Origin: Stutzerimonas stutzeri | Lineage (GTDB): Bacteria; Pseudomonadota; Gammaproteobacteria; Pseudomonadales; Pseudomonadaceae | DNA: 64,000 nucleotides | Direction of reading: 5' to 3' | Assembly: GCF_024448985.1 (NCBI RefSeq) | Contig: NZ_JAMOII010000004.1 | Span: 225,192 to 289,191, forward strand | Part shown: positions 18,177 through 20,254 of the stretch, one piece after another | Layout: each line of letters begins with the position of its first letter | How positions within the stretch are numbered: position 1 is the stretch's first letter | Position numbers and translations under genes: made by a program | Notes under the pieces: generated by a model | Databases searched by the model: none | The model's input: only the letters and a program-made list of their open reading frames with translations | Told to the model about the DNA's origin: nothing

Positions 18177-18200
18177 GATACTGTATACACGAACAGTATC
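18177..18200. promoter_or_regulatory. LexA-type SOS box
   Basis: GATACTGT-ATACACGA-ACAGTATC is a perfect 8-bp inverted repeat around 8 bases and contains the exact LexA pattern CTGT-N8-ACAG. It ends 15 bp before the radical SAM start codon, where it could block transcription. The site is seen directly; LexA control is inferred from known gammaproteobacterial boxes. Confidence 0.88.
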
Positions 18201-18215
18201 TCGACGCTTCTTACC

Positions 18216-19427
18216 ATGCAATTGATCGACAAACTCAGCGTTCTGGCCGACGCCGCGAAATACGACGTGTCATGCGCCAGCAGCGGCGCGCCAAAGCGCA
18301 GCTCGAAAGGCCGCAGCGGGCTTGGCGCCACTGATGGCATGGGCATCTGCCACAGCTTCACACCCGACGGCCGTTGCGTGGCGTTATTGAAGATCCTTCT
18401 GACCAACTTCTGTCTATACGACTGCCAGTACTGCGTAAATCGGCGTTCCAGTGACGTACCACGTGCGCGTTTCACGCCAGAAGAGGTAGTGACGCTGACG
18501 CTCGATTTCTACCGGCGCAACTGCGTCAGCGGCCTGTTTCTAAGCTCCGGCATCATCCGCTCGGCCGACTACACCATGGAACAGCTCAATCGAGTGGCTA
18601 AGCTGCTACGCGAGGAGCATGAGTTCCGCGGCTATATCCACCTGAAGACCATCCCGGACGCCGACCCGCTGCTCATCGCCGAGGCCGGCCGCTACGCCGA
18701 TCGCCTCAGCGTCAATATCGAATTGCCCACCGAGACCAGCCTGATCCGCCTGGCACCGGAAAAGCAGGTAGTGACGATCAAACAGGCCATGCATTCGATT
18801 CATCAAGGAGAGACCGAAGCCCAGACGGAGAAAGGTTCGCCGCGTTTCGCTCCAGCCGGGCAAAGCACACAGATGATCGTCGGCGCCGACGCAACTGACG
18901 ACAGCACCATTCTGCATACCGCACAGTCGCTATATGGCGACTTTCGCCTGCGTCGCGTCTATTACTCGGCGTTCAGCCCGATTCCGCACAGCCCCAAGAC
19001 CGTGCCGTTCGAAGCGCCGCCACTGTTACGTGAGCATCGGTTGTATCAGGCCGACTTCCTCATGCGCGGTTATGGCTTCCGCGCCGGCGAGCTACTCGCC
19101 GGTCCGGGCAATCTCCCGCTGGATATCGACCCCAAGCTTGCCTGGGCGCTGTCCAACCGCGAGCACTTTCCGGTCGACCTGAACCGTGCCGAGCCGTCGT
19201 TGATCGCACGTATCCCCGGGATCGGAATACTCAGCGCCAAACGCCTGGTCGCCCTGCGACGGCAAAAACGCATCCGGTTCGAAGACCTGACGCGGCTGCG
19301 CTGCTCGCTGGAAAAGGCCAAACCCTTCGTCATAACCCATGACTACCGCCCGCCGCTGGCCTACCGCGAGTCAGCAGCCCTGCGCCAGCAACTCAGCGAA
19401 GGCCCTCAGCAGATGGCGCTGTGGTGA
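18216..19427 (+). CDS. Putative DNA modification/repair radical SAM protein
   Basis: Radical SAM protein of 403 residues, of the family annotated as putative DNA modification/repair; the reaction is unknown. The iron-sulfur motif CLYDCQYC (C-x3-C-x2-C) is near residue 68, inside LLTNFCLYDCQYCVNRR. Conserved features include GMGICHSF before it and LFLSSGI after. The C-terminus carries a helix-hairpin-helix-like segment (ARIPGIGILSAKRLVAL), a common non-specific DNA-binding element. The start is the ATG 15 bp downstream of the LexA-type palindrome, with no strong ribosome site. Its stop overlaps the next gene as TGATG. The SOS box, the HhH element and the partner gene together support a DNA-damage role. 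Confidence 0.88.
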   Translation: MQLIDKLSVLADAAKYDVSCASSGAPKRSSKGRSGLGATDGMGICHSFTPDGRCVALLKILLTNFCLYDCQYCVNRRSSDVPRARFTPEEVVTLTLDFYRRNCVSGLFLSSGIIRSADYTMEQLNRVAKLLREEHEFRGYIHLKTIPDADPLLIAEAGRYADRLSVNIELPTETSLIRLAPEKQVVTIKQAMHSIHQGETEAQTEKGSPRFAPAGQSTQMIVGADATDDSTILHTAQSLYGDFRLRRVYYSAFSPIPHSPKTVPFEAPPLLREHRLYQADFLMRGYGFRAGELLAGPGNLPLDIDPKLAWALSNREHFPVDLNRAEPSLIARIPGIGILSAKRLVALRRQKRIRFEDLTRLRCSLEKAKPFVITHDYRPPLAYRESAALRQQLSEGPQQMALW

Positions 19428-20254
19428 TGCGCCAGGTGCGCTTCGACGGCAGCTTCGATGGTTGGCGCGCCGCTGCCCGCGCCCTGCTTGGTGCGGGCGT
19501 AGCCCCTCATGACGCCGAATGGCTGAGCGGCGACGCTCCAGGCAGTCTGTTCGAATTTTGCGACGCTTCCCCCGAGTCGACCGAGCCGTCACTGCCCATC
19601 CGTATTCCGCGGCAGCTGTTGGACGAGCTGGAAAGCGCAGCCCGATTTCGCAGCGACGACCGCTGGAGCCTCCTGTATCGCATTCTCTGGCGGGTCGCCA
19701 AGGGCGATCAGACAGCCAGGCTCGCCGGCGATATAGATGGCAGCGAACTGCATGCTCGAATCAAGGCGGTACGTCGCGAGGCCCATCATATGCACGCTTT
19801 TCTCCGCTTCAGCCCGCTGAGCAGGGTAAACGCCCCGGACTATGTGGCCTGGTTCGAGCCGGCACACGACATCCTGCTCAGTGCGGCGCCACACTTCGCC
19901 GAGCGCATGGGCCTGCATTCGTGGCTGATCGCGACGCCGGATGATGCGGTGTTATGGGATGGCCGGAACATGCACTACGCCAGCCCCTGTCCGCCCCACT
20001 GGCGGCAGCTGGCGCAAGATGTACAGGATGCCGGCGCCGAGCTGTGGAAGACCTATTACGAAAGCACCTTCAATCCGGCGCGGCTGAATCAGGTGGTGAT
20101 GCAGAGCAATTTGCCGGTGCGCTTCTGGAAGAACCTACCGGAGGGGCCGCTGATTCCGCAATTGATGAGCCGCGCCCGAGCCGGTGCGCAGCGTGACGGT
20201 CAGGCCGAGCGCGTTGCCAGCCAGCCGGGCAAGCGTATCGGCCCGCGAAACTAG
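19427..20254 (+). CDS. DUF4130-family putative DNA repair protein, partner of the radical SAM gene
   Basis: 275-residue protein of the DUF4130 / TIGR03915-like family, normally encoded beside the radical SAM protein. In other bacteria the domain is often fused to a UdgX-type uracil-DNA-binding domain; nothing resembling that is present here, and the protein ends soon after LPVRFWKNLPEGPLIPQL. Recognisable parts are VRREAHHMHAFLRF, DYVAWFEPAHDIL and LWKTYYESTFNPARLNQ. GTG codons at 19421 and 19424 are in frame, but the ATG at 19427, overlapping the upstream stop, is the simplest start. It is probably co-transcribed with the radical SAM gene under the same SOS box. Function unknown. Confidence 0.85.
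   Translation: MRQVRFDGSFDGWRAAARALLGAGVAPHDAEWLSGDAPGSLFEFCDASPESTEPSLPIRIPRQLLDELESAARFRSDDRWSLLYRILWRVAKGDQTARLAGDIDGSELHARIKAVRREAHHMHAFLRFSPLSRVNAPDYVAWFEPAHDILLSAAPHFAERMGLHSWLIATPDDAVLWDGRNMHYASPCPPHWRQLAQDVQDAGAELWKTYYESTFNPARLNQVVMQSNLPVRFWKNLPEGPLIPQLMSRARAGAQRDGQAERVASQPGKRIGPRN

Follow-up and report, generated by a model that had tools for sequence, protein, structure and literature searches.

Analysis of a 64-kb stretch of the Stutzerimonas stutzeri genome (referred to below as the window) revealed a radical SAM gene and a DUF4130 gene behind a LexA-type SOS box. On balance, the sequence evidence favors the view that this pair is an SOS-induced module that acts on damaged DNA at the beta sliding clamp, alongside the DnaE2 mutasome, and for which UdgX is a dispensable arm. 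The features of the locus are listed in Table 1.

Table 1. Sequence features of the radical SAM-DUF4130 locus (positions in the window)
Feature	Position	Strand	Details
LexA-type SOS box, GATACTGT-N8-ACAGTATC	18177..18200	.	Core CTGT-N8-ACAG at 18181-18196
Radical SAM protein, 403 aa, C-terminal helix-hairpin-helix	18216..19427	+	TIGR03916, 534.9 bits (cut-off 343.5)
Extra C20, C45, H46, C54	18273..18377	+	Upstream of the radical SAM motif; invariant
Radical SAM motif CxxxCxxC (C66, C70, C73)	18411..18434	+	Invariant in 53/53 aligned sequences
Helix-hairpin-helix, residues 319-359	19170..19292	+	PF12836, E 9e-6, 26.1 bits, just under the cut-off of 27
Beta-clamp-binding-like peptide QMALW, residues 399-403	19410..19424	+	Extreme C-terminus of the radical SAM protein
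DUF4130/TIGR03915 protein, 275 aa, stand-alone, without UdgX domain	19427..20254	+	TIGR03915, 204.2 bits (cut-off 112.25)

A conserved LexA-type box precedes the radical SAM gene

The box, which reads GATACTGT ATACACGA ACAGTATC in full, ends 15 bases before the ATG at position 18216 of the radical SAM gene. The first-pass annotation of this DNA had described a perfect LexA-type palindrome at this place, and both the sequence and a matrix score bear it out. With a matrix derived from six other SOS promoters of the same genome (the box promoters of lexA, recA, imuA, umuD, topB, and a PA0069-family radical SAM gene), the box scored 25.9, and the runner-up in the 64 kb scored 13.3. The value lies inside the range of the six matrix sites, which was 21.1 to 36.7 in training and 11.5 to 33.3 in the leave-one-out calculation. 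The pattern ACTGT-N4..16-ACAGT occurred once in the window; in 100 shuffles it occurred 0.20 times on average, and 16 of the shuffles contained it at least once. Taken alone, this count is weak support for the box. Consensus scanning of the locus yielded no sigma-70 promoter.

The radical SAM gene was searched for in 58 genomes, including that of S. stutzeri, and was found in 31. These were 31 of the 37 genomes of the genus and, in that draw, none of the 21 others of the order. The gene order pyrC, TM2 gene, radical SAM gene, DUF4130 gene was kept in all 30 genus relatives, and pilU came next in 29 of them; in the exception, L058, a longer DUF4130 gene fills the stretch examined. A box lies ahead of the radical SAM gene in all 31 genus loci, including the window (27 exact, 4 with one mismatch). 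Considering the relatives only, the palindrome was thus present in each of the 30 close homologues, 26 times with the exact core and 4 times with CCAG in place of ACAG; its absence from them, named at first pass as grounds for refutation, was not observed. CTGT was invariant in the 31 sites, each picked as the best upstream match, whereas the majority of bases lying 10 to 20 positions farther left were variable.

To extend the comparison beyond the genus, 398 genomes were drawn from the phylum, 84 of which carried a protein over the TIGR03916 cut-off. Removal of three genus members left a phylum set of 81 loci; a named set comprised the best 80 of 590 confirmed loci. Lineages are shared between the two sets, which are not independent of each other. 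A box was counted when an exact CTGT-N8-ACAG or GTTC/GAAC-N7 repeat lay no more than 100 bp upstream. Such a box was present in 71 of the 81 phylum loci (0.26 expected from 200 base shuffles each) and in 61 of the 80 named loci (0.31 expected from base shuffles). Its form tracks the lineage, with the CTGT type in Pseudomonadales, Burkholderiales, and Salinicola and the GAAC/GTTC type in Alphaproteobacteria; these are the LexA sites of the respective lineages. The suggestion made with the first-pass annotation, that LexA boxes be sought ahead of orthologous pairs, thus yielded lineage-fitting boxes in both sets.

Among the 10 phylum loci that missed, five carry a CTGT box with one mismatch, placed 31 to 33 bases ahead of the start codon; the remaining five are L105, L155, and three loci (L110, L111, and L115) that cluster with Stenotrophomonas in the tree described below. 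The 19 misses of the named set comprise seven Pseudomonadales/Burkholderiales loci whose CTGT box has a single mismatch (in one case at a distance of 77 bases), L247 with an exact box at -108, and 3 Xanthomonadaceae, 3 Verrucomicrobia, 1 Burkholderiales, and 4 Alphaproteobacteria loci. An exact GTTC-N4-GAAC was seen at the Verrucomicrobial locus L208.

A chance palindrome was rejected, since genus conservation, the boxes of the orthologues, and the matrix score argue against it. With CTGT-N8-ACAG close to the start codon and kept in relatives, the box has the features of a LexA-regulon operator. We conclude that the box is real and conserved, and its site and conservation suggest that LexA regulates the operon.

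An inverted repeat, GTCTCA-N5-TGAGAC, lies about 60 bp or less before the radical SAM start at L110, L111, L115, L241, L207, and L245, with one mismatch in L110. These loci, three named as Xanthomonadaceae and three grouping with them, are without the usual boxes, and the repeat is possibly another operator or an RNA hairpin. The most divergent orthologue of the set, L155 (genome G129, same order, 49% identity), keeps a C-terminal tail, QLALF, and has no recognizable LexA-type box upstream.

Conserved residues of the radical SAM protein

The radical SAM protein belongs to TIGR03916, which we take to be the family designated COG4277. The three cysteines of its CxxxCxxC motif (Table 1) are those expected for an Fe-S cluster. 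Four additional residues, C20, C45, H46, and C54, were invariant in 53/53 sequences and in 24/24 sequences of an initial set reaching down to 49% identity, and they possibly form an auxiliary metal or Fe-S site or supply a catalytic cysteine. The helix-hairpin-helix-like element named in the first-pass annotation was found again, as the near-cut-off PF12836 match of Table 1 and as an HHH_3 match (E up to 0.5) in 50 of 53 relatives.

The combination of a radical SAM protein with a DNA-binding domain raises the possibility of direct reversal of a thymine photoproduct, as carried out by spore photoproduct lyase. We consider this quite improbable, because a profile search of solved structures with the radical SAM protein (E up to 1) did not return spore photoproduct lyase and because spore-type DNA would not be expected here. 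The matches in this search were weak helix-hairpin-helix matches, generic radical SAM matches, and chance matches.

Neither the radical SAM protein nor the DUF4130 protein matched a PADLOC defense model at E up to 0.01, and we therefore rejected a phage-defense pair. The PHROGs search gave a weak generic radical SAM match only, and a phage origin was rejected on this basis.

The radical SAM protein ends in a clamp-binding-like tail

The C-terminal peptide QMALW follows a variable linker. Comparison of the aligned sequences revealed that Q399 is kept in 51/52 and L402 in 49/52. The mean entropy was 2.01 bits in the linker (residues 373-398) and 1.34 bits over the five tail positions, about that of the helix-hairpin-helix (1.31 bits), with values of 0.14 for Q399 and 0.37 for L402. 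The pattern QxxL[FWLI] was found in the last 16 residues of 31/31 genus, 71/81 phylum, and 69/80 named proteins, compared to 2.1% of shuffles; tail variants elsewhere include QLSLF and QLELF. Of the 21 proteins that missed the pattern, 19 have close variants (QLGFGF, QLGFAF, QLSLAL, QMSLAL, QMALAL, QLDMF, and QTEMF), the ending QLGFGF occurring in 7 phylum and 3 named proteins, and two from Verrucomicrobia lack a tail of this kind. The bacterial clamp-binding consensus is given as QL[S/D]LF or QxxLF (PMC12309361). QMALW matches this consensus in Q and L, with W replacing F. Judged from the motif, the tail looks suited to docking on the beta sliding clamp.

The tail also bears on the question of whether the two proteins jointly modify DNA, placing a base mark upon DNA damage or phage infection. 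Such a role is compatible with the NCBI family name, and radical SAM enzymes are capable of C-C and C-H changes. SOS control and a clamp tail suit repair better, the immediate neighbors in the genus are pyrC, the TM2 gene, and pilU, and the PADLOC and PHROGs results described above also speak against a base mark, so we regard this explanation as unlikely. We favor repair, in which a lesion would be directly reversed or trimmed, over a programmed modification of the DNA.

DUF4130 is a constant partner, and the UdgX domain is not

The DUF4130 gene starts with the ATG inside a TGATG overlap with the radical SAM gene, which had been noticed at first pass and is confirmed in the sequence; a GTG at 19421 is an alternative start. 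The DUF4130 Pfam match of the protein reached 126.2 bits against a cut-off of 27. Alignment of 54 sequences revealed the invariant residues D102, H120, R127, F128, P145, F157, R160, T170, D201, W207, Y210, and FNPAR (215-219), a set that looks enzyme-like. The AlphaFold2 model is confident (mean pLDDT of 89.2). A single-sequence search at E up to 1 found no solved structure like DUF4130, and at E up to 0.5 no second Pfam family was present in more than 3 of the 54 members.

DUF4130 was found over its cut-off in all 84 radical SAM genomes and in none of the six genus genomes without the radical SAM gene. Among the control genomes, the species Caulobacter crescentus gave matches to both the radical SAM and the DUF4130 family. 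The pairing is not strictly mutual, because three genomes keep DUF4130 over the cut-off without radical SAM; a fourth has a weak, stop-bearing DUF4130 remnant. Two of the three keep a DUF4130-UdgX protein and one a 227-residue DUF4130 frame, and each has an exact GAAC/GTTC repeat within about 250 bp of the DUF4130 domain start.

In 60 of the 81 phylum loci, DUF4130 is fused to a downstream UDG domain in the same gene. It stands alone in 19, and in two it lies outside the stretch examined, both genomes having one about 3 kb downstream. The "two-gene unit" of the first-pass annotation is therefore an accurate description of the window but represents a stripped form of an arrangement that, in these 60 loci, has the three parts radical SAM/DUF4130-UdgX. 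The fused domain of one relative matched TIGR03914 ("UdgX family") with 347 bits. It scored 195 bits against Mycobacterium smegmatis UdgX versus 124 bits against the best family-4 UDG, with GEQPG and H109 aligned; the DUF4130 protein of the window has no counterpart of this domain. By pattern, the UdgX histidine loop is present in 111 of 117 fused proteins from all sets, some of them from the same species. The six misses are the decayed domains of L058 and L133, L172, where the loop is out of frame, and three that are perhaps pattern failures. Covalent capture by UdgX and the UdgX motifs have been described (PMC10359453), and the UdgX papers examined make no mention of SOS, operon, fusion, or radical.

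The UDG domain is absent from 30 of the 31 genus loci. In the exception, L058, and in a relative, L133, the domain is kept without GEQPG and the loop histidine; because it is decayed there, it was probably lost in the genus and not gained. The change between the fused and the stand-alone state was followed in a FastTree phylogeny with 173 rows, made up of the window, 11 genus loci, 81 phylum loci, and 80 named loci. At least 15 changes were counted on this tree, whose loci were chosen for having the radical SAM gene and in which rows of unclear state were not counted. A search of the S. stutzeri genome with the TIGR03914 profile at E up to 0.001 gave no match, this profile being the one uracil-DNA glycosylase family that the search covered. 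A UdgX-dependent function in the genus was rejected in view of the UDG-less loci and this negative search.

Weak and partial TIGR03914 matches under the cut-off were seen in nine of 10 genus genomes searched (L096-L103). Eight of these nine loci were viewed, and six have a similar protein with a UDG-like motif in a readable frame. At L214, DUF4130 and UDG are encoded in two overlapping or adjacent frames and not in one fused gene.

Relation to described operons

SOS control of the COG1573-COG4277 (UDG-radical SAM) operon has been inferred in Bacteroidetes, equal control being cited for Verrucomicrobia and Alphaproteobacteria, and the operon has been proposed to act against ribonucleotide misincorporation (PMC8565304). 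This operon and the window share a radical SAM/helix-hairpin-helix gene and a UDG-family partner under a LexA-type box; they differ in that the partner in the window has DUF4130 only and no UDG or UdgX domain. SOS control of the pair is known in kind, and not new, because control of this related operon is in print. The first-pass claim of an SOS-controlled repair or modification unit of undescribed chemistry is favored by our data; SOS control had already been reported for the wider UDG-bearing operon.

The same proposal forms the basis of another explanation, a base-excision system for uracil or ribonucleotides inserted by SOS polymerases, in which the radical SAM protein would be a helper only. 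The UDG/UdgX fusions in most phylum loci, their histidine loop, and the two genomes with DUF4130-UdgX and no radical SAM gene are points in its favor. We nevertheless consider it an improbable account of the window, since the genus retains the box, the radical SAM gene, and DUF4130 without a UDG domain, the genome itself gave no match in the TIGR03914 search, and the fused state has changed repeatedly among radical SAM-selected loci. The preferred reading remains a radical SAM-DUF4130 module for which UdgX is dispensable.

A 2013 study (PMC3765255) linked DUF4130 to SOS mutagenesis, predicting it to be a mutagenesis-related enzyme, and associated it with UDGs and with radical SAM proteins that are SplB-like. 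The SOS mutagenesis neighborhoods of that work share with the window the DUF4130 domain and a general radical SAM association. The clamp tail and the UDG-less form were not found in the accessible text of PMC3765255, and neither the clamp tail nor the constant DUF4130 pairing nor the dnaE2 linkage was found in that of PMC8565304. Within the literature searched, outside of which most subscription papers lie, there was no report joining a clamp-binding motif, radical SAM, and SOS or joining UdgX and radical SAM, and DUF4130, TIGR03915, TIGR03916, or COG4277 were mentioned in two papers only. Additions of the present analysis, none of which was found in this literature, are the form without a UDG domain, the clamp tail, and the neighborhood with dnaE2.

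The module often co-occurs with dnaE2

One known way in which mutation is induced in bacteria is SOS mutagenesis by DnaE2. DnaE2 was present over its cut-off in 170 of the 398 phylum genomes, namely, in 72 of the 84 radical SAM genomes versus 98 of the 314 others (Fisher p 8e-20, a value that ignores shared ancestry). DnaE2 is not required, because 12 of the 84 radical SAM genomes, five of them from the window's own family, are without it at this cut-off.

The dnaE2 gene adjoins the module in at least 12 of the 84 genomes, a number based on 25 dnaE2 places entered among the matches listed. This neighborhood was seen in two family groups only. In five genomes, all from f64, dnaE2 is on the strand of the radical SAM gene and directly downstream, at a distance of 1.5-1.6 kb from the radical SAM match, which is the room of a DUF4130-UdgX gene; in seven, all from f67, it is divergent and about 2.4-2.6 kb away. 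The neighborhoods read were two of the five same-strand cases, one of the seven divergent cases, and L268. At L267, an imuB-like frame, a box, the radical SAM gene, DUF4130-UdgX, and dnaE2 follow each other on one strand. L266 has the radical SAM gene, DUF4130-UdgX, and dnaE2; the 0.77 kb examined upstream contains no imuB-like frame. The divergent arrangement at L265 includes an imuB-like frame and dnaE2, and L268 has an arrangement without radical SAM. The dnaE2 genes of L265 and L266 are over their cut-off. Frames were called imuB-like because they are 24-28% similar to the gene that occupies the imuB position in the S. stutzeri genome. This gene and the L265 frame gave weak matches to Y-family polymerase models; the L267 frame, which is partial and at the end of its stretch, matched no NCBIfam family.

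The module and the ImuA-ImuB-DnaE2 mutasome appear to have SOS control in common and share, in the genomes just described, a neighborhood. ImuB of the mutasome uses the clamp (PMC11791113). The radical SAM-DUF4130 pair differs from the mutasome in not being a polymerase, and in the window's genome imuA and dnaE2 are found at a separate locus (C3).

Proposed function

In the mechanism that we propose, LexA would repress the operon and DNA damage would derepress it. The radical SAM protein would bind DNA via its helix-hairpin-helix and dock on the beta sliding clamp via QMALW. Together with DUF4130, it would act on a damaged nucleotide, one either stalling translesion synthesis or accompanying it, presumably by 5'-deoxyadenosyl-radical chemistry. 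An apparent SOS switch combined with a clamp-docking-like tag points to a module with a probable role in repairing or processing damaged DNA where replication forks have stalled, and the module would belong functionally with the DnaE2 mutasome. DUF4130 may be the shared hub, because its partners differ: radical SAM alone here, radical SAM together with UdgX in most of the relatives examined, and UdgX without radical SAM in two genomes. Since DUF4130 occurs in all three combinations, UdgX, which excises uracil and cross-links itself to the abasic site, may be an arm separable from the rest, and uracil excision by UdgX would not be needed for the core reaction here.

A more specific version is offered tentatively. 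In this version, a clamp-riding radical SAM enzyme within the SOS mutasome would remove or rewrite the lesion by means of the extra N-terminal Cys3-His site, DUF4130 would be a lesion-holding hub, and UdgX would be an optional second warhead. If true, this would add to radical SAM DNA repair a second kind, one found outside spores and coupled to translesion synthesis. The locus draws attention to an uncharacterized module that often co-occurs with DnaE2 in genomes and shares its neighborhood in some lineages, and the clamp-binding-like tail and the Cys3-His site are open to direct experiment. In the UDG-less genus, the radical SAM reaction is set apart from UdgX, so the function of TIGR03916 can be approached with two purified proteins.

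Other LexA-type boxes in the S. stutzeri genome

CTGT-N8-ACAG occurs at 35 places in the 4.23-Mb genome compared to 14 for a reversed control pattern, and many of the 35 are therefore chance occurrences. Inspection of 28 of them, in stretches of 3 kb or 2 kb, identified beside a box the six genes whose promoters supplied the matrix, each scoring above the NCBIfam cut-off of one or more families that carry its name. The gene divergent from umuD, which we take to be SRAP-like, has its best family match under the cut-off. The PA0069-family radical SAM gene (L021, C12:40440) likewise lies behind a strong LexA-type box, its longest frame beginning 2 bp past the box, but its product belongs to another family (NF033668) and not to TIGR03916. 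On a 7-kb contig, a LexA-type box is positioned 12 bp ahead of an RstR/DicA-repressor-like gene (L023, C34:5982; 73.6 bits, under the cut-off of 80), and the two are perhaps a prophage switch. The box of topB, the DNA topoisomerase III gene, is positioned 58 bp ahead of it (L008, C3:36489).
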